From the NCBI GenBank assembly GCA_027071355.1, contig JALSUJ010000193.1, positions 1-37,531 on the forward strand: 37,531 bases of DNA, given 5' to 3'. Origin of the DNA: Gammaproteobacteria bacterium (lineage in GTDB: Bacteria > Pseudomonadota > Gammaproteobacteria > GRL18). The position numbers and the translations under genes are program-made. Positions within the stretch are counted from its first letter, which is position 1; each line of letters begins with the position of its first letter. Of this stretch, positions 998-19,459 are shown in pieces. Under the pieces are notes generated by a model, which worked only from the letters and a program-made list of their open reading frames with translations, searched no databases and was not told the origin of the DNA.

Positions 998-1897
998 TTA
1001 TTTTTTTGCAGGATACAGATGCAGGGCATCACACAGCGGGGAACTGTAGTCAATAAGATCATCCAGCCGTGAACGGTTAAGCCGGTTAAAGGCGGTATCA
1101 TCAAGATTTTTGGTGGCATCAAGGGCGAGTCCGTTGTGCACAACCAGGGTTGAGGATTCACGTGGGTACATGAGTGGCATGGAAGCGGTGCGCTGGTAGC
1201 GGTGGCCGTCGTGTGTCACGATATTAGCACGTACATGGGCAGCCTGTTTGCGGATACGATAAAACGTGGTGGAAGCGGGCAGGGTAGCAAGGTGGTTGGC
1301 CACGTTTTCAAAGTTATGGGCATCGATGAGACGAGCGGTTTCACTGAAGCTGAGTTTTTCTACAATCCGACTTTGCCTGGTAAGGGTAAAGCCGACGCGT
1401 CGTGGCTCATTGGGTAGCAGGGTAATACGGCGGGTTGATTGGCGCAGATGCAGTTTTTTTGCACCGATGGCATTAAGTATTGTTCGCAATTCCTTGTTAC
1501 CTTGCATGTGATGCAGGGTTTCTTCCAGACTGGTTTTCCGTACACTGTGCTTAATCAGTGCCACCACATCGCTGAGATTTTTTTTAGCAATATTGACACG
1601 TTTTGCCTGGGCGAGCGTGTCGTTATTGACCCCGATCAGTCCGTAGTGGGAGAGCGTGTTTCTGGGTTCAGCCGGGTTATGGATATTGATAGCCTGATAG
1701 ACCCCGATAATTTTTTCACGTATCACGGTAGCGGGTGTGGAAGACACGGTATCTTCAATCCATGCAGGGGCGATATCGTCACGGATAGACTGGCCAAGGT
1801 CCATCAGTGAACGGGTCAGGGTGATATAGGCATCGAGCAGGGCAACCCGATGGGCTTTTAGTTCTTTTTCTGTGTCCGGGACAGGGTTAATCATCAT
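998..1897 (-). CDS. tus: Tus-family DNA replication terminus site-binding protein
   Basis: The protein is about 300 residues, against 309 for E. coli Tus. In the long frame from 1912 (304 residues) the segment around 161-200 (RRITLLPNEPRRVGF, then IVEKLSF and ETARLIDA) follows Tus RTLTVLHDPATLRFGW, IIKNLHR and DEVLAQLEK. The stretch THDGHRYQRTASMPLMYPRES parallels the Tus [22 protein letters not shown] region. The C-terminus ALHLYPAKK parallels RLHLYVAD. Tus binds Ter sites and arrests replication forks approaching from one side. I cannot confirm equivalents of the E. coli cytosine-pocket residues (Phe140, His144). The longest frame starts at 1912, but the best promoter has its -10 box on codons 2-3 of that frame, so ATG 1897 or 1894 is more likely, giving an almost leaderless message. 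The gene is divergent from the RecG-like gene. Confidence 0.75.
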   Translation of the reverse strand: MMINPVPDTEKELKAHRVALLDAYITLTRSLMDLGQSIRDDIAPAWIEDTVSSTPATVIREKIIGVYQAINIHNPAEPRNTLSHYGLIGVNNDTLAQAKRVNIAKKNLSDVVALIKHSVRKTSLEETLHHMQGNKELRTILNAIGAKKLHLRQSTRRITLLPNEPRRVGFTLTRQSRIVEKLSFSETARLIDAHNFENVANHLATLPASTTFYRIRKQAAHVRANIVTHDGHRYQRTASMPLMYPRESSTLVVHNGLALDATKNLDDTAFNRLNRSRLDDLIDYSSPLCDALHLYPAKK

Positions 1898-1902
1898 ATC
1901 AC

Positions 1903-1919
1903 TATTATACATTCATGCT
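1903..1919 (-). repeat. 17-bp element, copy 1 (candidate Tus operator/Ter-like site)
   Basis: AGCATGAATGTATAATA reads 5'-3' on the minus strand and is identical to copy 2 at 2114-2130 on the plus strand. The two copies form a widely spaced inverted repeat bracketing the divergent promoter region. Preceded by T, it gives TAGCATG, one base from the TAGTATG of E. coli TerA. The 3' half (ATGTATAATA) resembles TTGTAACTAA only if a one-base shift is allowed. In E. coli the TerB site overlaps the tus promoter and mediates autorepression, which makes the same role plausible here. Confidence 0.5.
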
Positions 1920-1933
1920 ACAGGAATTATCAA
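1904..1933 (-). promoter_or_regulatory. Predicted sigma70 promoter of the tus-like gene
   Basis: On the minus strand TTGATA (1933-1928) is followed by an 18-bp spacer and a perfect TATAAT (1909-1904). Transcription would begin near 1897, at or next to an in-frame ATGATG. The -10 box lies inside the 17-bp repeated element, so any protein bound there would block this promoter. Confidence 0.55.
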
Positions 1934-2100
1934 CCCACCGAGCGATTGGCCCGCCATAATCCTAACCAAAGCAGTCTGTAGATGTGGCTTGCTATTCAAT
2001 CGGATGACCCCTTGACGCACCGGCTTTATTAAAAGAAAAATAAAATAAATAAAAAATAAAAAAAACGATTGGCAGGAAACCGGACAGGTTCGGGATGTGC

Positions 2101-2129
2101 TTGAAATCTTATAAGCATGAATGTATAAT
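2101..2129 (+). promoter_or_regulatory. Predicted sigma70 promoter of the recG-like gene
   Basis: TTGAAA (2101-2106), a 17-bp spacer and a perfect TATAAT (2124-2129) form a strong consensus promoter. A long A-rich tract (about 2029-2066) lies upstream. The predicted transcript start near 2136 is only a few bases before ATG 2139, so the message would be essentially leaderless if translation starts there. Confidence 0.6.
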
Positions 2130-2130
2130 A
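2114..2130 (+). repeat. 17-bp element, copy 2 (candidate Tus operator/Ter-like site)
   Basis: This is an exact second copy of AGCATGAATGTATAATA, inverted relative to copy 1 (1903-1919). It is preceded by ATA, giving ATAAGCATG against ATAAGTATG in E. coli TerB. It contains the -10 box of the recG-like promoter. Because both copies carry the promoter -10 boxes, one regulator could silence both genes together. Confidence 0.5.
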
Positions 2131-2138
2131 ATTATATT

Positions 2139-4076
2139 ATGAATACAAAAGAAACCCTTTCCAGGGAAGTCCGGCCATCCCTCGGGCGGCTCAAGGCACT
2201 GGGGCCCCAGCAGTTCGATCAACTGGCATTTCTGGTACCGCGTGACTACGAGGACATTGCCTTGCCGGTAGTCGATTTTGCCACCCTGGTAACACATGCC
2301 ATTGGCACAGAAATACTCACGGTCGAAGGTCGTCTGTTTCAGACACCGGTCAAACACTGGGGCAAGATTCCATCATTGACCTTGATGCTGGTCGATGACC
2401 GTGGCTACAGTCTGAATGTCTGTATTTTTGGCAATACCCAGTCACTACAACGAACATTAAACCCCGGTAAACGCTACTGCTTTCGCGGTAAACTCACCTG
2501 CTTTCAGCAAACGCTGCAACTGAGTGGTGGCGAGTGGATACCTGAAGAATGGATCGGTCGGGTGCGACCACGCTATCCGGGTAAAAGCGGTTATCTCAAC
2601 GCCGAGACGGTGGCCCGGAAAATGACCGAATACCTGCCGCTGGCAATACCGCTTGCCTGTGCGTTTTTACGACGGCAGCTGCGCATAAAAAACCCCTTGC
2701 AGGAACAGCAGCGTTTACACCGTTACGCTATTGCCTTTTCCACCCTGGAGGCTGTTTTTCATGCCGTACATACCCCCGAAACCCGCGATCAGGGCATCCG
2801 GGCCCGCCATGCCCTGTTAGTATTATCCGCCCATTATCGTGTAGCACAAATCGGTCAGCAATCGTCGCCAGCACCGGCTAATTGCCGACCAAATGTAATG
2901 CAATTACCTGCGCTGATGGCGCAACTGCCATTCACCTTAACCGGCGAACAACAGCAGATTGTTCGTGAACTTTACCATCGCATGAACCAGCCAAATGCCT
3001 TGCGGCACATGCTGATGGGCGATACCGGTAGCGGGAAAACTGTCTGCTACGCCATGGCGGTTGCCGGTATCATCGAGGCCGGCGGTTTTTGTGCGATCAT
3101 CTTGCCATCAACCAGCCTGGCCCGGCAGATTGCGGCGGATTTTCAGCAATGGTTTCCGGCTATGCCAGTGCAATTAGTTGTTGCCGGTGAAAAATATCAA
3201 TGGCCACAAAACCCGTCAGCACCGGCAGAAGTTCATATCGGAACCACCGCGCTGTTGCACAACAACCCGTGCCGCTACGCCCTGGTCGTCGTGGATGAAC
3301 AACACAAGCTGGGAACAAAACAACGTCAGCAGCTGCTCACACAGACGCATCTGCTGGAAGTAACTGCCTCACCGATTCCACGTTCAACGGCATTACTCAA
3401 ACTGGGTGTGATGTCGGTATCACTGATTCGTCACTGCCACGTTCAGCGTTCGATTACGACGCGTTTATACGAAGCATCAGCGCGACAAACGCTGTTTCAA
3501 AAAATCATTGAGACAGTAAACCGGCAGGAAAAAGTCCTTATCCTCTATCCGCAGATCGGTGAGAGTGAAGCGGAGAACAAAAAAGCACTGGCCTCCGCAG
3601 CCGGCCACTGGGAAAACCATTTTCCAGGTCAGGTCTGTCAGGCGCATGGTCACCTGACTGAAAAGGAAAAACAGACCGCCATTGAGACATTCAAGCAAAA
3701 TCAGGCCAGTATTCTGATTGCAACCACGGTGGTTGAATGTGGCATGAACATCCCGGGGTTGACGCTCATCGTTGTAATTAACCCAGAGAAGTTTGGATTG
3801 AGTACGCTTTACCAGGTCAGAGGGCGTTTGTGCCGGGAAGGAGGGAGTGGCGAATGCTGTTTGTTTGCAGACAAACCCCTTGCGGAGAAAACCCGTGCAC
3901 GTCTGCAGGCTTTGATTGATGCCAGAAATGGTGATCAACTGGCGCAGGCAGAATTACAACTGCGCGGGGCAGGGCAATTGCAGGAGGGCGTTGAGCAGTC
4001 CGGTCACCATGATTGCCTGGTGTACGGGTTTAGTGACCAGCTGGCACTGGAAGCTATTTTGCATCAGAAAATTTGA
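2139..4076 (+). CDS. recG: RecG-like ATP-dependent DNA helicase (plasmid-encoded)
   Basis: This superfamily-2 helicase of about 645 residues (E. coli RecG is 693) has all the core RecG motifs. The N-terminus LKALGPQQFDQLAFLVPRDY resembles the start of the RecG wedge region. Walker A is MGDTGSGKT (about residue 300), motif II is DEQH (about 390), and motif III is TASPIPRST. Motifs V and VI are ATTVVECGMNIPG and YQVRGRLCREG. The end (AELQLRGAGQLQEGVEQSG) matches the RecG C-terminal helical hook. RecG remodels stalled forks and R-loops and limits over-replication where forks meet. Its position beside a Tus-like gene and the origin suggests plasmid fork processing. A frame upstream starts at 2121, but that ATG overlaps the -10 box, so 2139 is preferred. 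No clear Shine-Dalgarno is seen for either. Confidence 0.85.
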   Translation: MNTKETLSREVRPSLGRLKALGPQQFDQLAFLVPRDYEDIALPVVDFATLVTHAIGTEILTVEGRLFQTPVKHWGKIPSLTLMLVDDRGYSLNVCIFGNTQSLQRTLNPGKRYCFRGKLTCFQQTLQLSGGEWIPEEWIGRVRPRYPGKSGYLNAETVARKMTEYLPLAIPLACAFLRRQLRIKNPLQEQQRLHRYAIAFSTLEAVFHAVHTPETRDQGIRARHALLVLSAHYRVAQIGQQSSPAPANCRPNVMQLPALMAQLPFTLTGEQQQIVRELYHRMNQPNALRHMLMGDTGSGKTVCYAMAVAGIIEAGGFCAIILPSTSLARQIAADFQQWFPAMPVQLVVAGEKYQWPQNPSAPAEVHIGTTALLHNNPCRYALVVVDEQHKLGTKQRQQLLTQTHLLEVTASPIPRSTALLKLGVMSVSLIRHCHVQRSITTRLYEASARQTLFQKIIETVNRQEKVLILYPQIGESEAENKKALASAAGHWENHFPGQVCQAHGHLTEKEKQTAIETFKQNQASILIATTVVECGMNIPGLTLIVVINPEKFGLSTLYQVRGRLCREGGSGECCLFADKPLAEKTRARLQALIDARNGDQLAQAELQLRGAGQLQEGVEQSGHHDCLVYGFSDQLALEAILHQKI

Positions 4077-4188: not shown

Positions 4189-4240
4189 ATAATTAGGGAG
4201 GCCAAAAAACACTAGATAAAACAATAAGATACAGAGGCAA

Positions 4241-4344
4241 CCTACACTAAAAATGTGCAAAACCTACACTAAAAATGTGCAAAACCTACACCAAAAATGT
4301 GCAGACCTACACCAAAAATGTGCAGACCTACACCAAAAATGTGC
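4241..4344 (+). repeat. Iteron cluster 1: five direct repeats
   Basis: The 18-bp unit CCTACACCAAAAATGTGC starts at 4241, 4263, 4285, 4306 and 4327. The first two copies have T for C at the eighth base. Spacing is 22, 22, 21 and 21 bp, about two helical turns, so bound Rep monomers would lie on one face of the DNA. Confidence 0.9.
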
Positions 4345-4489
4345 ACCATAAATAATCATCTAAATTAGCATCAATTGAACAATTAATAACCAAAAATAGC
4401 GTTATTTACCCTGAAATCGTCGCAATCACGGCGTTATAGAGTCATTTATCACCTGGAACAAGGGGGAAATCCTATTATTTTGTAGAACA

Positions 4490-4528
4490 CCTACACCAAA
4501 AATGTGCAGACCTACACCAAAAATGTGC
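4490..4528 (+). repeat. Iteron cluster 2: two direct repeats next to rep
   Basis: Two further exact copies of CCTACACCAAAAATGTGC start at 4490 and 4511 (21-bp spacing), separated from cluster 1 by about 145 bp. Their place just upstream of the rep promoter suggests autoregulation of rep or handcuffing with cluster 1. Confidence 0.9.
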
Positions 4529-4556
4529 AAAAAGGGCTTTTTGGGATAAAAAAGTG

Positions 4557-4585
4557 CTGAAGATTACAAAAAACAGCATCTTCAG
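4557..4585 (+). promoter_or_regulatory. Dyad element A upstream of rep
   Basis: The element is CTGAAGAT, an 11-bp A-rich spacer, then GCATCTTCAG. The arms are complementary (GCTGAAGAT/ATCTTCAGC when flanks are included). The same 29-30 bp pattern recurs before traI, the giant Ig-like gene, dsbC and the mini-traC gene. A weak -10-like CTAATC lies 26 bp after its end. Upstream lies only the iteron region, so it is more likely an operator than a terminator. Confidence 0.6.
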
Positions 4586-4635
4586 CGGTATGTCACGTTT
4601 TTTCTTTGTGCTAATCTCGTTTTTTGATTATCGCT

Positions 4636-5916
4636 ATGACAGGCAACCCCATGCAGGATGAAATTTTACCCTCAGTTGATGTACTGAAAAAACCCAGCGC
4701 TTTTGTTCAGATCGACGCGAACCTCAATTTGTTTGAGCGCCGTCTGCTCAACACGCTACTCTGTCATGCGATGAATGAGGGCAATCTCTATAACGGGGAG
4801 GAGTGTGTCCTTGCGCTCAAAGACGCAAGACCTACTGTCAGCCCAGGATCGAGGAGTTATCACCAGTTCCGTCCGGCCATTGAACGCCTGGTGTCAACAA
4901 AAATTAAATGGAATTCACTCGAACAAGACAAATCCCAAAACTGGGGGGTAACCACCTTCCTGGCCTATGGTGAGCGCATCGGATCAAATTTGATTTTTAG
5001 GGTCAACTCTGGGTTAGTAAAAAAAATGCAGGACCCGTATTTATTTAGTCGTCTTCGCATGACGATGCAATGCGGGTTTACAACGAAATACGCGCTGATT
5101 ACGTATGAATTTTTTAATGATGTACTCTGTCGGCAAAAAAGTTCCAATTTAACGCTAGATATAGAGAAGGAACTTATCTACAAACTCTACCTGTTGGAGA
5201 CGAAAGGCGAACGCAATCAAGCATTTTCACGGTTTGAAACTAATATCCTAAAACCAGCTATCGAACAGGTCAACGACAAATCCGATATTGATATTAAATA
5301 TACCGTAAACCGTGATCCAGAAAACAAATTAAAGGTGCTGACCTTATCTTTCACTGTTACACGTACCGGAGAAATGTTGACAAATACGTTTCACCTGGAA
5401 GATTTTTCAGATCAGTCATTGGTTAATAACAAAATATATCAACAATTGATTTCATTCAAAATCAGTCGAGCCGTTGCAGCCGACATTATTGAGAACTATG
5501 ATGACGTTAGGATCACCAACAACATTAATTACGCCATTCATCAACATAAAAATAAAAAAAAATCCAATCTGGCAGGTTATATCATTACCTGTATTCGTGA
5601 AAATATGGTATTGACAGCTCACTACCCGGCAAGTAAAAAGAAAGAAAAAGTGGATAAGGAAAAGAAAAGTGATACTACCTCTACGCCCTCCGTCACAGCG
5701 AATAACAGAGATAAACAAATCATCGAGGGTTTCTCCGCGCTGGACGAAACAACCAGGGAACAGCTGTTCAATCTGTTTGTGTCGCGGTTGAAAACAGCCG
5801 AACAACCCATCATTAAGACCGCCTACCGAAAACTAGGCATTAAATCGAAAACATTCCGGCAGCGGTTTACATCGCTGATGGCGGATGAAATAGAGGATTT
5901 GCTGGATATCAACTAA
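4636..5916 (+). CDS. rep: Rep_3/RepB-type plasmid replication initiator
   Basis: The protein has about 426 residues. The N-terminal half carries the tandem winged-helix pattern of Rep_3 initiators: a first domain from QIDANLNLFERRLLNTLLCHAM, the Y-x-x-F-R-P-A-I-E-R-L motif, then a second DNA-binding domain containing the LYLLETKGERNQAFSRFE region. Such proteins bind iterons and open the origin. The C-terminal part (about 290-426) has a lysine-rich linker (KKKEKVDKEKK) and a further helical domain. This makes it longer than minimal Rep proteins. Iterons directly upstream support the role. ATG 4636 is chosen. A TTG at 4624 extends the frame, and ATG 4651 is also possible. None has a strong ribosome binding site. 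Confidence 0.85.
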   Translation: MTGNPMQDEILPSVDVLKKPSAFVQIDANLNLFERRLLNTLLCHAMNEGNLYNGEECVLALKDARPTVSPGSRSYHQFRPAIERLVSTKIKWNSLEQDKSQNWGVTTFLAYGERIGSNLIFRVNSGLVKKMQDPYLFSRLRMTMQCGFTTKYALITYEFFNDVLCRQKSSNLTLDIEKELIYKLYLLETKGERNQAFSRFETNILKPAIEQVNDKSDIDIKYTVNRDPENKLKVLTLSFTVTRTGEMLTNTFHLEDFSDQSLVNNKIYQQLISFKISRAVAADIIENYDDVRITNNINYAIHQHKNKKKSNLAGYIITCIRENMVLTAHYPASKKKEKVDKEKKSDTTSTPSVTANNRDKQIIEGFSALDETTREQLFNLFVSRLKTAEQPIIKTAYRKLGIKSKTFRQRFTSLMADEIEDLLDIN

Positions 5917-5952
5917 AAAATAGCTAGACATTAAGGTCTGTGGCAGCAGGAA

Positions 5953-5972
5953 TTTGGATTGTGCAATCCAAA
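5953..5972. terminator. Perfect 9-bp inverted repeat between convergent genes
   Basis: TTTGGATTG and CAATCCAAA are separated by two bases and lie between the stop of rep and the stop of the minus-strand lipoprotein gene. The position suggests a bidirectional terminator, but no clear T-tract follows on either strand and the stem is AT-rich, so this is uncertain. Confidence 0.35.
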
Positions 5973-5993
5973 AATCAACAGGAGATACCTGAT

Positions 5994-6509
5994 TTACTTC
6001 TGAGGTGAACATTTATCATTCAATATATCCGGCATAGGATTGTTGTCAACAACGGTTTGTTCATGATCCGTTAAATGATTACCGAGACAGTAGGCTAACC
6101 AGGCATTCAGTATGTCTTTATTGTTTTTTGGTTTTTTATGCTGTTGCCCTTTTGCAAGAGCAATGGCTAAACTTTTCTGCTGAAGACTTTTTAGGACGCT
6201 TACTTCGTTAATTGCGTTGGCTTTCTGCTGGTGGCTTTTTGCTTTTTCTGGTGGTTGGAAAGCATGCCGGCTCACGACGGCCTGATACCCGTGTTCGTAT
6301 TGGACAATATCCTTTCTCTTCGTTAAAAAAGCGTTCGTATAGACAGGGTGATCAAGCTTTAAACTATCTTTTTTTATAACTGATTTTTTTTGTACAGCCG
6401 CTTCAGGTTTTTTATCATTTACCTTTTTTTTCGATGTTTTTACATTGTGCTGACTGCAGGCACACAGCAAAGCCAAAACGATACCCGTGGTTAGTTTCTT
6501 TTTTATCAC
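5994..6509 (-). CDS. Small lysine-rich lipoprotein of unknown function
   Basis: A GTG start at 6509 is preferred because GGAG lies 7 bp before it. It gives a clean signal peptide (VIKKKLTTGIVLALLCAC), with the lipidated cysteine in LCAC. An upstream ATG at 6557 would add 16 residues and spoil the signal. The mature part of about 150 residues is polar and rich in K and Q, and has no recognised domain. The gene is on the opposite strand between rep and traI, with dyad element B in the divergent promoter region. A role in entry exclusion or surface attachment is possible from context, but nothing in the sequence proves it. Confidence 0.6.
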   Translation of the reverse strand: MIKKKLTTGIVLALLCACSQHNVKTSKKKVNDKKPEAAVQKKSVIKKDSLKLDHPVYTNAFLTKRKDIVQYEHGYQAVVSRHAFQPPEKAKSHQQKANAINEVSVLKSLQQKSLAIALAKGQQHKKPKNNKDILNAWLAYCLGNHLTDHEQTVVDNNPMPDILNDKCSPQK

Positions 6510-6627
6510 CCAAATTCTCCAAAAATAAATAATAAATATCAGCAATCGCTTCGCCATAAAAAAAGAGCAAGCTGATCACCAAAATAGCAATAACCACCTT
6601 ATTCTCTTTGTCTACAAAAAAAAACCT

Positions 6628-6656
6628 CTGAAGGTTAATAAAAAAGCCATCTTCAG
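6628..6656 (+). promoter_or_regulatory. Dyad element B in the divergent traI/lipoprotein promoter region
   Basis: The element is CTGAAGGT, an 11-bp spacer (TAATAAAAAAG), then CCATCTTCAG, the same 29-bp pattern as element A. TATAAA begins 24 bp after its end, and traI starts 16 bp after that. Because the flanking genes diverge, no transcript enters from either side, so this copy cannot be a transcription terminator. Being a dyad, it could control both directions. Confidence 0.6.
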
Positions 6657-6695
6657 CGATATTTTTATTTTTTAAATATTATAAAGTATAACGCT

Positions 6696-12231: not shown

Positions 12232-12328
12232 CAGTATTTGTGTTTTTTTAAGATGTTATGCTTTGGCATAGATAAAATTTTATCCGGTTGGCAATACAAT
12301 AATTATGGAGATCGGTCAAAGAGCCGTC

Positions 12329-15300
12329 ATGAAAAAAATGAAGCTTACTCGACAAACTGTTACCACCTTGTTTTTTTTATGTTTTTCGCTGTTTACAACA
12401 CTTGCCCAGGCGGTTCCTTTAAACATTTTTCAAAACATAAATACTGACTATACTAACCCAACCCCGAATCGCCGTTGGCACGGGACTACATTAGGTGTTT
12501 CACCAACAGGTAATCCTGGCTCCTATATAACCCCAGGCACATTTACGCTTACCGGCGCAATCTTTGATTCACCGGCTTTAGGGTCAAAAACCGTTCGGTA
12601 TTTAAAGTTTACTGTACAAACCGCCAGGACTTATGCTTATGATATTAATGATTTTGGCAATGGCAATACCTGTCATCTACCGGCCGGACAGACAACCTGT
12701 GTTCTCGATATCGGAACCAGTCAGGCGTTTCCCACGGACCCGAGCGGTTTTTCTGACGGTTATGTTGTGTTTAAAACCGGATCGAGCAGTGACGTTGGAC
12801 TTTACTTTGTTAATATGTCAGTCTCGCCAACGCTGGTTTCACAGGCTATTACAGGGAAACAACTGACTGTTAAGATCAATACAACATCAAGCAGTCGATA
12901 TCAGATCCAGCCGGCAATTAGCACCGGCGCTGCAACCGCCACGACGAATACAATTATTCAGTTACAGTCACCAGACTGCAGCGTTAATTATAATACCCCA
13001 CCAACCATTACCCGTGCCGGGAGTGTTGCCAGTCTGGCATTTGATCTGTCCGGGATCACCGTTCCAATGGGTCAGCCCAGTTGTACACTAAACTGGTCTT
13101 ACGATGAAGTCCTGTTTAAAGGGCATGTTAGCGGGTCTATCACTTACCAGGTTCTTGACAAAACGCCGCCTGTCATTCACTTAAACGGAACATCGCCTGG
13201 TTTATTGAGCAGCTTTATTCCGGTCATTACTGACGACCATGATCCGGCACCGGTTATAACTGGCGCAACGATTTCCGGCGGACCAGCTGGCTTAACCCCA
13301 ACACCTTTAACCCTGAGCGGTGGACAAAACGGGGCACCTTACGCCTTGAGCAGTGCAACAGCTTATATCGGTGCCGGCTTTGTTATTCATCTGACAGGTA
13401 AGGATAAATCAGGTAATGTTGCCAACTTTGCATCGCAGCCCATCACGATCACCTTACCGGATACGCAACCACCGGTCATCAGTGTTAAAGTAAACGGTCA
13501 GATAGTTCAGGCAAACAGTGCTGGCAAAATCACGGATTTTACCGTTTCAGTAAGCGATAACACCGATCCCAACCCTACAATCACCTCGGTCACCCTGGCT
13601 GACGGACCAGCTGCCATGGGACAAACACCCCTGACACTGGTTACAGGCACCAACGGTAATAGTACATTACCCGCCATGGCTGTCACACCCGGTACCGGTT
13701 ATACCTTAACAATCCATGCACAGGATATAATGGGTAACAAGGCAAGCTACACGCAGTTGATAACGATTGATAACGTGCCGCCCGTTATTAGCTTTACCGG
13801 TACATCCCCGGCTGTTTTAGGCGCATTTGTTCCGGCAATAACGGATAATCTTGATCCACATCCGGTTATAACCGGCGCAACCATTTCCGGCGGACCGTCA
13901 TCCATTGTTTCGTTACCCTTAACCCTTCACGGCGGTACCGGCGGTACGCCTTATTCTTTAAGCAGTACCACGAATTTAATGGGGTCAGGATTTACTATCC
14001 ATCTGACGGGTAAAGATAATGCGGGCAATACCGCAACATACACAACGCAACCGATTACCCTCAGCCTGCCGGATAATACCCCACCGGTTATTGACGTGAA
14101 GAAAAACGGACGTTCTATTACCGCAAATACAGCCGGGAAGATCACAAATTTCACTGTCTCTGTCACCGACAATATTGATCCGAACCCGACGATTACCTCA
14201 GCAACCCTGTCAGGCGGACCAGCTGCCATGGCAGTTACCCCGTTAACGCTCGTTAAAACCCAAACAGGTTATATGTTGCCTGCCATGGCAGTTACACCTG
14301 GCAACGGTTATACATTAACGATCAATGCACAAGATATAATGGGTAATAAGGTAACCTATTCACAAACCATAACCCTTGATGATGTCCCGCCGGTTATAAC
14401 GTTGGCCGGTACATCACCGGCTGTTCTGGGTGCTTATGTGCCCACCATAACCGATAATGTGGACACCAACCCGACGATTACATCAGCAACCATTTCCGGT
14501 GGGCCGTCATCAATAACCTCTGCAGCGCTAACCTTAACGGGTGGTACCGGTGGGGTTCCTTATTCTTTAAGTAGTTCCAGTAATTTGATGGGTGCAGGCT
14601 TCGTTATTCATTTGACGGGTAAAGACAAAGCGGGTAATACAACCACGTTTACGTCATTGCCCGTTACGATCAGTTTGCCGGACAGTACCCCACCGGTTAT
14701 TGACGTGAAGAAAAACGGACAGTCTATTACCGCAAATACAGCTGGCAAAATCACGGATTTTACTATTTCTGTAAAAGACAATATTGACCCCAACCCGACG
14801 ATTACCTCAGCAACCCTGTCAGGCGGGCCAGCTGCCATGGCAGTTACCCCGTTAACGCTCGTTAAAACCCAAACAGGTTATACCTTGCCTGCGTTGACCG
14901 TTACTGCTGGAAGTGGCTACATCCTGACCGTAAAGGCACAGGATATGTCAGGAAACAAAACAAGCTATACCCAGTCGATAACAATCGATAACACACCACC
15001 AACAACACAATTACTATACAAGGGCGTGCCATTACCTCAGTCAGGTTCACAGACTTTGGTGTGTCCAACAACCTTTCAACCACAATCTCTGGCCATTAAA
15101 GTCAGCGATGACACTGACCCGGTGCCGGTGATACAAGTAACATTAACGGATGGCAGCAACAACAGCTACCCGGTTTCAACACAGTGGGACAGTGTATTGA
15201 AGCAGTATTTGCTGAAATTTACGGTACCGGACGGCGTTCTGACAATGCATGTGCAAGCGCGTGATGCTTCGGGCAAAGTGACTCAAAATCTTTACACAAT

Positions 15301-18300
15301 TGCCTGTGATACACACGGGCCGGCAATAACCCTGACAACAAACGGGAAGCCTTTTGTAAACGGGGCCGCTATTGCAGCATTCAGCGCTTTAAACCTTAAT
15401 GTTAATGATGCACTAAGCTCTAGCGTCCACCTGGATCCTGTTGTTATTACTTCGCCATCATTGGCTACACCGATAACAGTGAACGCCACATCAGGCACTA
15501 CAAACCCTTTGGTTACACCGCTTAGTATTGGTAGTCCACTAGCCGAATCGGTATCAACCAGCGTGCCGTATACATTAACGGTCAGCGCAACAGATACGCT
15601 GGGCAATAAAACCCAGAAAACGATAACTTTCTATATTGATCATTCTGCACCAACAATTCAGCTGAATATAAAAAATAATGGCAATACCTGGGTTAACGGT
15701 GATCCGGTTGCCGCGTTGAGTCAACTGGTGTATCAGGTTAGTGATACTTTTGATAAAAACGCAAAAGTTACAAACGTAAATATCACCGGTGGGCCGACAA
15801 ATGTAAACACACCTGTTGGGCTATTGCCGTCAACAACCGGAACCAGCATGCAGGACATGAGTCTATTTCCGTCAAATGGAACCCTGTACACATTAACGGC
15901 AACGGCAACAGATGCTGCTGGCAACACAACAACCATTACGAGCACACTGAATTATTCACCGACGAATGTTCCCCTGTTTGGCCATGCTAATTCAGATATT
16001 TACGTGCCGGCTTTAACCCGTACCTTTATTGATAATGCAGGACACCCGGCACTTTATACAGATCCTGTTACTTATAGCAACGGAAGTGTGTATACCGGCA
16101 CGTCACAATTAACCGCGTATTCTGCGAGCAACTCAACTGTTCCTGTAGTAATAGGCGGGAAAACCATCGCGCCAGGCCAAAGCGTGGTTATTAATCCGGC
16201 GTATGATTTCAGCAAAACAGCAGGAAGCATTAGTCTCCCGGTTCATACCGTCAAAGACGGCGATGAAGGGGTAGCGAACATCACTATTAAAACCGGGGTG
16301 GCTAATACCAGTATCTTCTCAACCAAAATTACAACCTGGTCATCCCATGTAACCCTTGCGGCTGATAACTGGACGGTACAACAGTTTTTAGGAAACATTA
16401 ATATTCGTGTTTTGATAGACAAAAAAACCATGTGTCGGGTCACGACAAATGTTGATGTGGCAAAAGCGGGTGATATTTATGCTGATCCGGTATGCCTGAT
16501 AAAATTTGATACAAAGCCTGCAACAACGCATGTGATAAACAAACCAGATGTAAAACTGGTTGGAACATCAAGTATTCTTGGTAAAAACAAGATATCGTAT
16601 AGCGTTTATCTCTATGAAGGAAGTAGTCAGATACTACTGAGTACAGGAACAAATTTTATCCAGGTTAACGCTTTAACATTAAATTATGATCTTGTTCTAC
16701 CTGCAGGCAATATCAGGCAGAATATTCAGTCTATCAACACAACGCTGAGATTAGTTTCAGGTGATACCTGTAAATTAACAATGAGTCCTGCTAGAGCAAA
16801 AGCAACCGTTCAACCAGGACGAAAAAAACAATGTCTGGTTGAATGGCTTAATTTGCCACCTGGCCTTTCTCAGCGAAATTATGTTTCAGCACCAAACCTG
16901 ATCGGGAGATTAACAACTTTAGGTGCAAATAAAATCGCCTGGCGAATAAGCCTGTTTAAAGATAATGGCTCAAAAACCGTTGTTTCAACGGGACAAAGGA
17001 TAACAAACGTTACCGCACCACAACCGCCTCAACTAACCATAAAATCTTTATCAAGTTTATCGATGGCAGGTAATGACTATATTACAACCACAGATGGTGG
17101 AAATATAGCGAAAGCTGATTATTATGCACCTGCGGGAGACTTGTTAGTTACAACAAGTATTGATGGTGTGGTGAGTAGTGTGCGTGCAGTAGGCTCAAGG
17201 ACAGGACGCGCAACACAAGGCTGGTTGTTAGTAAGAAACACTAAAACAGCTTTGTGGTCGAGCCACACTTATAAAATAAAGGTTGCCTATAAATATATGC
17301 CGCAACTTTTTATAGAAAAAACCATTACATCGAAGACAGCGCCCTCGTTACGTCTTGCGCTAAAATTATCGCAATCAACGCATACAAGAACAGTTATAAG
17401 TACAGACATTCAGCATTTCACTGTTAATCTGACAACCGCCTACTCAAGAATTAACAATTATGACAAAACAACAATGGGTGCATGGAACGTATATATCGGA
17501 AACCTGCAGCCTGATGGGACGGTTCATTCCCTAACACCAACAGTTCCATTAGCAATTGATACCCCCTTTGATGTTGATCTAACGGGTATAACACAAGCCA
17601 ACCTGGTTGCAGTGGCAACACTGAACAGTCAAGTACCAGGCTACGCACGAACAATAAAATCAAGAAGAATTAGTTTAAGGGTTCTGCAAGGACGCGGGAT
17701 TCATGGAACCATTGAATCAAGAAAAATAAGTGGTAGCGCACCTTTAAGAACAGTGCTTTATATACGGACAAGCCGCGATGCGTATTATCAAGTTGATAAG
17801 GTAGACTGGTATGTTTCACAGGATGCCGGCTTGACTTATACCAAAGCGATAAACCCTGCTCGTAATACACGTTCTTTTTATCATGTGTTCCCGCTGGGTG
17901 AATATAAGGTCAAAGCCGTAATCTTTAATAAAAACACAGGCGCAACTTATGAAACACCGCCGGTTAATATCATCGCTTATCATCGCCCCGAATTTGAAAT
18001 CAGGGGTGCGTTAAACGACTATATAGGCACGCCTCGACCAATCTTTGTTTATGATAAAGATCCAGGTGTATTGGCTAACGCATCCACGGCACTAACAACA
18101 GAGATGGCGACATTATCAACAACCTGCCAGTCACCACAGTTTGATTGTACGCCGAACACAGGCTGGTACTGGAAATTAAAAAATGACGAGACTAATGCTA
18201 ATGAATCAATGATTAACAATATATATGAATATTCGATTGATAATGGAAAAATCTGGCATCCGATGAATGGCTCGTTTACCCCATCGGCTACGCAAACTGC

Positions 18301-19459
18301 CTCAAAAGGATACATATACATAATGATACGCGGACGCAGCAAAAAAGCACCCGCAACGGACCGATACGCCTATACAACAAAAAGAACACGAATACATGTA
18401 ATAGCAATGAATAAAATTCGTGCTTATATTTATGTACCACGACGGATGGAGGCAGGAAAGAGTTATGTTATAAGAGGAATCAGGAGATCGCAACAAAATA
18501 TGTTATTGCCAGAGAAAAACTCATGGATATTGCCAGACGGAACCACCGTTGACGGCACTCTGAATTTGCATTACACACCAACAATCGCGGATGTAACAAA
18601 AGGCAGCGCACTCTTTCAGTTTAACCCAGGCTATTACGGAGGGTCTGCTTTTGATGCGGCACAAGGACATGCAACATCAACCGCTATGATATGGAAATAC
18701 ACCTTCCCAACCTTTATAATGAGTGTATATAAAAAAGTGGATTACGCACCCACCATTATCACTTTTATTGTTAAACAAGGAGTGAAAAGATATGCAGTTG
18801 ATGGTTTAAATATAAACTGGTTGTTACCATCAGGAGTCACAGTAAAACAAAGCGGATACGACAGAAGATCGCTCTATTTTGATAAAGCAGGTACCTACTC
18901 CATAAAGGCCAATATAAGCGATGCTAGAGGCAATGCTGTTACCTTGACAAAAACGGTTACGTTAGGAAGTATGCCACCATTTAATATATCTATAAGGGTG
19001 CTTGGTCCTACTAAGCACTACGCGCCTTATTATGTAAGCTTTAGGCCCACCATAACAGGCGGACATATCTACGACAGGATTACAAGTATAGATACTTATC
19101 TTGATGGAGTAAAACGAAGTAATAGTCGTAATATAATACTTAATCAAGGAACGCATAACATTAAATTCGTAATCAAATCACGTATGGGTGTTACTCAGTC
19201 CAAAACCATAACGATGGTTATTCTTCCACCACAGGCACCAATATGTACGCTACATACTTATAATAGTGGAGCATACATTATGCTACAACCTTATTGTCAA
19301 GATCCAAAACGATTACGACTCTCTTATGAATGGTATATAAACAATGTTTTTGTATCAACGAACAATAAATTATTAACCCAAAAAACAAATAAAACAAAAG
19401 TTACATTACGTGTTAAAAACAGCGCAGGTGTATACATAAAAAATGATATAAATTGGTAA
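12329..19459 (+). CDS. Giant secreted protein with tandem Ig-like/PKD-like repeats
   Basis: This protein of about 2,376 residues starts with a signal peptide (MKKMKLTRQTVTTLFFLC, with cleavage expected after TTLAQA). An N-terminal region of about 270 residues is followed by three ~203-residue composite repeats (13160-15000). Each contains a GTSPAVLGAFVPAITDN-type half and a VKKNGQSITANTAGKI-type half, with TGKDKAGNT and ISGGPSS motifs typical of bacterial Ig-like folds. More Ig-like repeats follow to about 15960, and PKD-like domains lie near the C-terminus. No autotransporter, sortase or membrane anchor is seen. Large Ig-like proteins on IncHI1 plasmids (R27 RSP) are secreted and influence conjugation, so a surface or mating role is likely. 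ATG 12305 is an alternative start. Confidence 0.85.
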   Translation: MKKMKLTRQTVTTLFFLCFSLFTTLAQAVPLNIFQNINTDYTNPTPNRRWHGTTLGVSPTGNPGSYITPGTFTLTGAIFDSPALGSKTVRYLKFTVQTARTYAYDINDFGNGNTCHLPAGQTTCVLDIGTSQAFPTDPSGFSDGYVVFKTGSSSDVGLYFVNMSVSPTLVSQAITGKQLTVKINTTSSSRYQIQPAISTGAATATTNTIIQLQSPDCSVNYNTPPTITRAGSVASLAFDLSGITVPMGQPSCTLNWSYDEVLFKGHVSGSITYQVLDKTPPVIHLNGTSPGLLSSFIPVITDDHDPAPVITGATISGGPAGLTPTPLTLSGGQNGAPYALSSATAYIGAGFVIHLTGKDKSGNVANFASQPITITLPDTQPPVISVKVNGQIVQANSAGKITDFTVSVSDNTDPNPTITSVTLADGPAAMGQTPLTLVTGTNGNSTLPAMAVTPGTGYTLTIHAQDIMGNKASYTQLITIDNVPPVISFTGTSPAVLGAFVPAITDNLDPHPVITGATISGGPSSIVSLPLTLHGGTGGTPYSLSSTTNLMGSGFTIHLTGKDNAGNTATYTTQPITLSLPDNTPPVIDVKKNGRSITANTAGKITNFTVSVTDNIDPNPTITSATLSGGPAAMAVTPLTLVKTQTGYMLPAMAVTPGNGYTLTINAQDIMGNKVTYSQTITLDDVPPVITLAGTSPAVLGAYVPTITDNVDTNPTITSATISGGPSSITSAALTLTGGTGGVPYSLSSSSNLMGAGFVIHLTGKDKAGNTTTFTSLPVTISLPDSTPPVIDVKKNGQSITANTAGKITDFTISVKDNIDPNPTITSATLSGGPAAMAVTPLTLVKTQTGYTLPALTVTAGSGYILTVKAQDMSGNKTSYTQSITIDNTPPTTQLLYKGVPLPQSGSQTLVCPTTFQPQSLAIKVSDDTDPVPVIQVTLTDGSNNSYPVSTQWDSVLKQYLLKFTVPDGVLTMHVQARDASGKVTQNLYTIACDTHGPAITLTTNGKPFVNGAAIAAFSALNLNVNDALSSSVHLDPVVITSPSLATPITVNATSGTTNPLVTPLSIGSPLAESVSTSVPYTLTVSATDTLGNKTQKTITFYIDHSAPTIQLNIKNNGNTWVNGDPVAALSQLVYQVSDTFDKNAKVTNVNITGGPTNVNTPVGLLPSTTGTSMQDMSLFPSNGTLYTLTATATDAAGNTTTITSTLNYSPTNVPLFGHANSDIYVPALTRTFIDNAGHPALYTDPVTYSNGSVYTGTSQLTAYSASNSTVPVVIGGKTIAPGQSVVINPAYDFSKTAGSISLPVHTVKDGDEGVANITIKTGVANTSIFSTKITTWSSHVTLAADNWTVQQFLGNINIRVLIDKKTMCRVTTNVDVAKAGDIYADPVCLIKFDTKPATTHVINKPDVKLVGTSSILGKNKISYSVYLYEGSSQILLSTGTNFIQVNALTLNYDLVLPAGNIRQNIQSINTTLRLVSGDTCKLTMSPARAKATVQPGRKKQCLVEWLNLPPGLSQRNYVSAPNLIGRLTTLGANKIAWRISLFKDNGSKTVVSTGQRITNVTAPQPPQLTIKSLSSLSMAGNDYITTTDGGNIAKADYYAPAGDLLVTTSIDGVVSSVRAVGSRTGRATQGWLLVRNTKTALWSSHTYKIKVAYKYMPQLFIEKTITSKTAPSLRLALKLSQSTHTRTVISTDIQHFTVNLTTAYSRINNYDKTTMGAWNVYIGNLQPDGTVHSLTPTVPLAIDTPFDVDLTGITQANLVAVATLNSQVPGYARTIKSRRISLRVLQGRGIHGTIESRKISGSAPLRTVLYIRTSRDAYYQVDKVDWYVSQDAGLTYTKAINPARNTRSFYHVFPLGEYKVKAVIFNKNTGATYETPPVNIIAYHRPEFEIRGALNDYIGTPRPIFVYDKDPGVLANASTALTTEMATLSTTCQSPQFDCTPNTGWYWKLKNDETNANESMINNIYEYSIDNGKIWHPMNGSFTPSATQTASKGYIYIMIRGRSKKAPATDRYAYTTKRTRIHVIAMNKIRAYIYVPRRMEAGKSYVIRGIRRSQQNMLLPEKNSWILPDGTTVDGTLNLHYTPTIADVTKGSALFQFNPGYYGGSAFDAAQGHATSTAMIWKYTFPTFIMSVYKKVDYAPTIITFIVKQGVKRYAVDGLNINWLLPSGVTVKQSGYDRRSLYFDKAGTYSIKANISDARGNAVTLTKTVTLGSMPPFNISIRVLGPTKHYAPYYVSFRPTITGGHIYDRITSIDTYLDGVKRSNSRNIILNQGTHNIKFVIKSRMGVTQSKTITMVILPPQAPICTLHTYNSGAYIMLQPYCQDPKRLRLSYEWYINNVFVSTNNKLLTQKTNKTKVTLRVKNSAGVYIKNDINW
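13160..15000 (+). repeat. Three composite 609-bp (203-codon) coding repeats
   Basis: Units begin near 13160, 13774 and 14384. Parts of the second and third are nearly identical: the stretch starting CCCCACCGGTTATTGACG at 14079 recurs at 14688, 609 bp later and in frame. The first unit is more diverged, so units two and three reflect a recent duplication or gene conversion. Confidence 0.8.

Follow-up and report, generated by a model that had tools for sequence, protein, structure and literature searches.

Why should a 17-bp element, AGCATGAATGTATAATA, be present in two inverted copies at the starts of a tus-like gene and a recG-like gene? As judged from the comparisons described here, the most likely answer is that the plasmid encodes a replication-stopping protein of its own, which binds at both copies. 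The stretch of DNA analysed (hereafter, the window) is a whole contig of 37.5 kb from a fragmented 4.17-Mb assembly, and its relevant features are as follows.

998..1912, minus strand: tus-like gene, 304 aa; start at ATG 1897 if the promoter is right (inferred from sequence)
1888..1919, minus strand: 32-nt inverted-repeat arm, 88% identical to the other arm
1903..1919, minus strand: ter-like site 1 (tus side), AGCATGAATGTATAATA; reads toward tus, as E. coli TerB does
1904..1933, minus strand: predicted promoter TTGATA-18-TATAAT of the tus-like gene, 11/12 consensus bases; overlaps site 1
2101..2129, plus strand: predicted promoter TTGAAA-17-TATAAT of the recG-like gene, 11/12 consensus bases; overlaps site 2
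2114..2130, plus strand: ter-like site 2 (recG side), an inverted copy of site 1 at a distance of 194 bp
2114..2145, plus strand: the other 32-nt inverted-repeat arm
2121..4076, plus strand: gene for a recG-like SF2 helicase, 651 aa; likely start ATG 2140 (inferred from sequence)
4239..4346, plus strand: five iterons, ACCTACAC(C/T)AAAAATGTGCA, probable origin
4488..4530, plus strand: two more iterons
4624..5916, plus strand: gene for the Rep initiator (Rep3_C, RepM-like)

An earlier note on this DNA had placed the element twice, in inverted orientation, at the starts of the two genes, and both the positions and the exact identity of the copies were confirmed. No further copy with up to three mismatches was found in the window, where 0.18 would be expected by chance, and in the 4.17-Mb assembly the exact element occurs only at these two positions. 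The best other match in the assembly bears two mismatches, lies inside a coding gene and was discarded. Among the inverted repeats of the window whose loop is 100 bp or longer and whose arms fall within 600 bp, the longest exact one was this 17-nt repeat, the runner-up measuring 13 nt; none of 1000 dinucleotide shuffles of positions 1701–2400 reached a 17-nt inverted repeat. The −10 boxes of both genes do lie inside the element, with −35 boxes at a distance of 17–18 bp, as had been proposed. If these strong promoters are used as predicted, transcription would begin at most a few bases ahead of ATG 1897 and ATG 2140, so that the tus-like and recG-like mRNAs would be leaderless or nearly so. Both open frames start with MYN, a sequence supplied by the repeat itself (positions 1895–1912 and 2121–2142).

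The candidate ligand of these sites is the product of the tus-like gene. Model PF05472 (Tus, Ter protein) gave no match to this protein even at E ≤ 1, nor any match in a search of the window's own genome. In a profile–profile comparison (hhalign), the subfamily of the window protein aligned with the E. coli and plasmid Tus proteins over 263 columns (99.6%, E = 1e-24), a homology that extends over the whole length, and PF05472 was matched by four of the nine aligned subfamily members. By these profiles, the window protein is a remote homologue of Tus. The family is present in 26 of 369 sampled genomes of its class (∼7%). The family profile matched none of the solved structures, and an AlphaFold model of the window protein by itself reached a pLDDT of 34 and was left out. 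Residues F140 and H144 of E. coli Tus, which belong to the cytosine-binding pocket, correspond to N and R in the window protein in a remote alignment that is uncertain at those columns. The cytosine(6) pocket of E. coli Tus has been described (PMC8707476). The genome from which the window derives contains a second tus-like gene (locus L047, G000:C384, positions 5737–6651, minus strand), upstream of which the site recurs three times in a different spelling (GGTCTGGTATAATA), one copy being inverted relative to the two others. On this reading, one cell would have two Tus dialects.

How closely do the sites resemble those of E. coli? TerB of strain MG1655 reads ATAAGTATG, in agreement with the spelling quoted in the earlier note. 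Both window copies read AG(6)CATG, that is, G(6) followed by NATG, while the strictly conserved 12-bp Ter core, ATGTTGTAACTA, is absent, the window having ATGAATGTATAA in its place. Of the likeness to half a Ter site that had been suggested, what stands is the G(6)NATG end, present in both copies; the core does not, and the consensus of mobile tus loci fits the copies better. The one-base gap once thought necessary in the 3′ half is required only in the alignment with E. coli Ter, whereas plasmid-type sites align without gaps.

Such plasmid-type sites were found as inverted pairs at other tus loci. The tus gene of a Marinobacter plasmid is preceded by GGATGTTGGTATATTT, 38 bp before its start, and by GTATGTTGGTATATTT, inverted, 214 bp farther out. 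In the first set of plasmids, exact inverted repeats of 12–18 nt, with one copy near tus and the other ∼180–270 bp farther out, were seen in about half of the loci. When a uniform rule was applied (score of at least 12), a pair was found at 12 of 36 tus start sites as compared with 3 of 186 other genes in the same stretches (p = 1.8e-8, a value to be read as a guide rather than as a pre-planned test, since the near and far ranges and the score threshold were set after the first pairs had been seen); one of the 12, that of L051, which has a truncated tus, is doubtful, and pairs from close relatives are not independent. Two additional pairs, at loci L050 and L016, lie beyond the scan range, and positions across scans rest on slightly differing start codons. 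The window pair gave the top score among the 36 loci scanned. Identity among the Tus proteins of the paired loci is mostly 20–30%, and proteins of the window type as well as of the E. coli type are found among them. More than half of the scanned tus loci, that of E. coli among them, gave no pair under this rule; Rts1, Vibrio and Photobacterium are further examples of loci that lack one, the regions upstream of the Vibrio and Photobacterium tus genes containing no clear pair. Mirror-image pairs, each with its own spelling, precede many other mobile tus genes. The window conforms to this layout of two inverted copies ∼100–350 bp apart, upstream of tus; in every pair the copy closer to tus is on the strand of that gene, the orientation of TerB. 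These sequence comparisons support the view that the tus promoter has a Tus-type site that is repeated in inverted orientation.

Twenty sites from ten of the other loci could be aligned without gaps, yielding the consensus GNATGATGGTATAAT, from which the window element (GCATGAATGTATAAT) departs at two specified positions. With a matrix built from these ten loci, which excluded the window sites, the two window copies matched the consensus and ranked first and second among ∼75,000 window positions; an earlier 14-site matrix had given the same ranks. When each locus was omitted in turn, its sites ranked first and second in five of the ten cases and within the top 14 in the remainder. The matrix contains a −10-like (TATAAT-like) half common to ordinary promoters, so part of the signal may be due to the promoter; the left half of the matrix was not specific by itself. 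Across whole plasmids, exact consensus matches are confined to the tus pair in Marinobacter and A. salmonicida, while P. donghaensis has them at one further place besides its tus pair.

Among the genes of the contig are those for a MobH relaxase and an SXT-type TraD, together with F-type transfer genes. A 21–22-nt iteron present in seven copies precedes the Rep initiator gene, which places the site pair ∼2.1 kb from the probable origin. A 55-nt direct repeat (73%) flanks the rep gene on both sides (positions 4548–4602 and 6619–6673), and the transfer region includes, at 12305–19459, a gene whose 2384-aa product carries repeated Ig-like domains of the bacterial type. The contig ends were compared for an overlap that would mark a circle, and none was found. 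A search with the Tus protein in viral and named-genome collections rendered no close relatives of the plasmid; a separate search gave only three plasmid matches, all distant. The nearest plasmid relative found is that of Marinobacter (TraD 48%, RecG-like protein 35%), which carries an annotated Tus.

The sites, their recurrence upstream of tus, the common consensus, the homology of the protein and the iterons point, with a probability of about 0.7, to a pair of ter sites of the mobile-plasmid type for the adjacent Tus, which would repress tus and recG and form an outward-facing trap, making replication essentially one-directional. The Tus-like protein is predicted to bind both copies, covering the −10 boxes, and so would repress both its own gene and the divergent recG-like gene. 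Since the sites face outward, with a polarity like that of TerB forks could enter the 194-bp interval and could not leave it. The leftward fork from the iteron origin would be arrested at site 1, while the rightward one would copy the rest of the plasmid and finish at the trap, the predicted mode of replication being essentially one-directional, as in plasmid R1, where two ter sites close to the origin, terRL and terRR, enforce it (PMC10331603). The earlier note had proposed that the opposed sites meet both forks; the inverted orientation holds, and if TerB polarity is assumed the proposal is refined to a trap that lets forks in but not out.

It could be argued that the element is a transcriptional operator only, at which the Tus-like protein or some other regulator co-represses tus and recG without any arrest of forks. 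Both copies overlap strong −10 boxes, the two flanking genes are divergent in the window and the lock residues are not conserved, all of which would suit an operator. At the other loci, however, the gene on the far side points toward tus in about half of the cases (the direction of some small open frames being assigned by us; the deposited annotation of pTK9001 shows a divergent gene), and the far copy, with no divergent gene to serve there, is not simply a promoter. Moreover, several pairs, those of A. hydrophila, Pseudoalteromonas and L050, have no good −10 box. A function restricted to repression is thus considered unlikely. The same pairs bear on the question, raised earlier, of whether conservation is confined to the promoter hexamers: across loci it is not, since GNATG upstream of the −10 box is conserved as well.

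The observation that the repeat does not end with the 17 bp but reaches the first codons (32 nt, 88%) is what would be expected had a promoter segment been duplicated recently, in which case the copies would be two ordinary strong sigma-70 promoters and no specific protein would bind GCATGAATG. This is very improbable, given that differently spelled inverted pairs recur before unrelated tus genes and that the identity extends upstream of the −10 box, where promoters vary freely, and fits the consensus of other loci. A pair of dif/Xer-like sites, or sites for another site-specific recombinase, is scarcely credible and was rejected: AATGTATAATA has a slight likeness to the centre of dif, but the two-arm 11-6-11 layout could not be seen by eye, the sites of other tus loci are unlike dif and no recombinase gene is adjacent.

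The ter sites that we favour in the promoter region of tus would also affect the neighbouring gene, whose product resembles RecG (E = 5e-95, under the curated cut-off). RecG and Tus of E. coli share a place of action, the terminating fork (PMC10331603), which makes the pairing of tus and recG functionally suggestive. Repression of recG by Tus on this plasmid is a proposal drawn from this one locus. Some match to the RecG-like helicase of the window was found in 5 of 13 tus plasmids, nearly full length in three; in these three, the plasmids of Marinobacter, Thioalkalivibrio and P. donghaensis, the recG-like gene and tus lie far apart, and two of them, those of Marinobacter and P. donghaensis, have a single inverted pair of exact consensus sites, which is at tus and not at recG. 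Other helicase genes were seen beside tus. In a small contig of a genome of the same family as the window's (L048, G008:C251), a tus-like gene preceded by an inverted site pair and a gene for a DnaB-like helicase are arranged tail to tail, and in L011 (CP136011.1, 5866–11183) a single gene separates a tus-like gene from a plasmid-borne gene for an mfd-like helicase, which is again an SF2 translocase in the neighbourhood of tus. As a tentative generalisation, with the odds somewhat against it, mobile tus genes may carry an entire trap upstream (two or three self-specific ter sites with a lineage-specific spelling); here, with the recG-like gene under the second site, occupancy of the trap would also determine how much is made of a helicase that keeps over-replication in check where forks terminate.

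The open-access literature searched describes no ter sites for mobile tus systems. The Tus protein of E. coli is regarded as a domesticated plasmid protein. The presence of inverted pairs before tus offers concrete candidate sites for many replicons, including the chromids of Pseudoalteromonas, for which published work has left open how one-directional replication comes about. The E. coli consensus has been used to look for ter sites on a Pseudoalteromonas chromid, without success (PMC7858055), and the chromid ter site bears a question mark in a review (PMC10331603). When three chromids were aligned (NZ_CP077771.1, NZ_CP142031.1 and NZ_CP133572.1; L094, L113 and L114), TAAGTAWGATGTGTTC was found to be kept as islands within diverged DNA upstream of tus, two islands of identity being inverted copies of TAAGTA(A/T)GATGTGTTC. 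In two of the three a third copy of TAAGTAWGATGTGTTC lies ∼0.7 kb upstream of tus, and on replicons of 680–899 kb every exact or one-mismatch copy is within 1 kb upstream of tus. TAAGTAWGATGTGTTC / TAAGTATGATGTGTTC are candidate ter sites of the Pseudoalteromonas chromids.

Among known systems, E. coli TerB resembles the window sites in that it overlaps the tus promoter, lies on the tus strand and starts with G(6)NATG; its autoregulation has been reported, and it is the GC(6) end of Ter that stops forks in E. coli (PMC8707476). In contrast to the inverted pair of the window, TerB is a single site; moreover, the Ter core ATGTTGTAACTA is missing in the window and the Tus proteins are only remotely similar. 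Edwardsiella tarda has a trap of just two Ter sites, one of them at the tus start (PMC8707476), although this trap is on the chromosome, close to dif, and has the Ter core of E. coli, while the proposed trap of the window is a plasmid pair in the tus promoter region. The Pseudoalteromonas chromids also have tus beside the origin of a plasmid-derived replicon and an inverted set of TAAGTAWGATGTGTTC upstream of tus; the published search with the E. coli consensus found no ter site there, and the site was given a question mark (PMC7858055, PMC10331603). Plasmid R1 resembles the arrangement proposed for the window in that its ter sites are plasmid-borne, two of them near the origin (PMC10331603). 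Unlike R1 and R6K, the window plasmid encodes its own Tus-like protein and has its candidate sites in the tus promoter. Those two plasmids rely on the Tus of the host and on E. coli-type sites, the ter of R6K consisting of two inverted sites.
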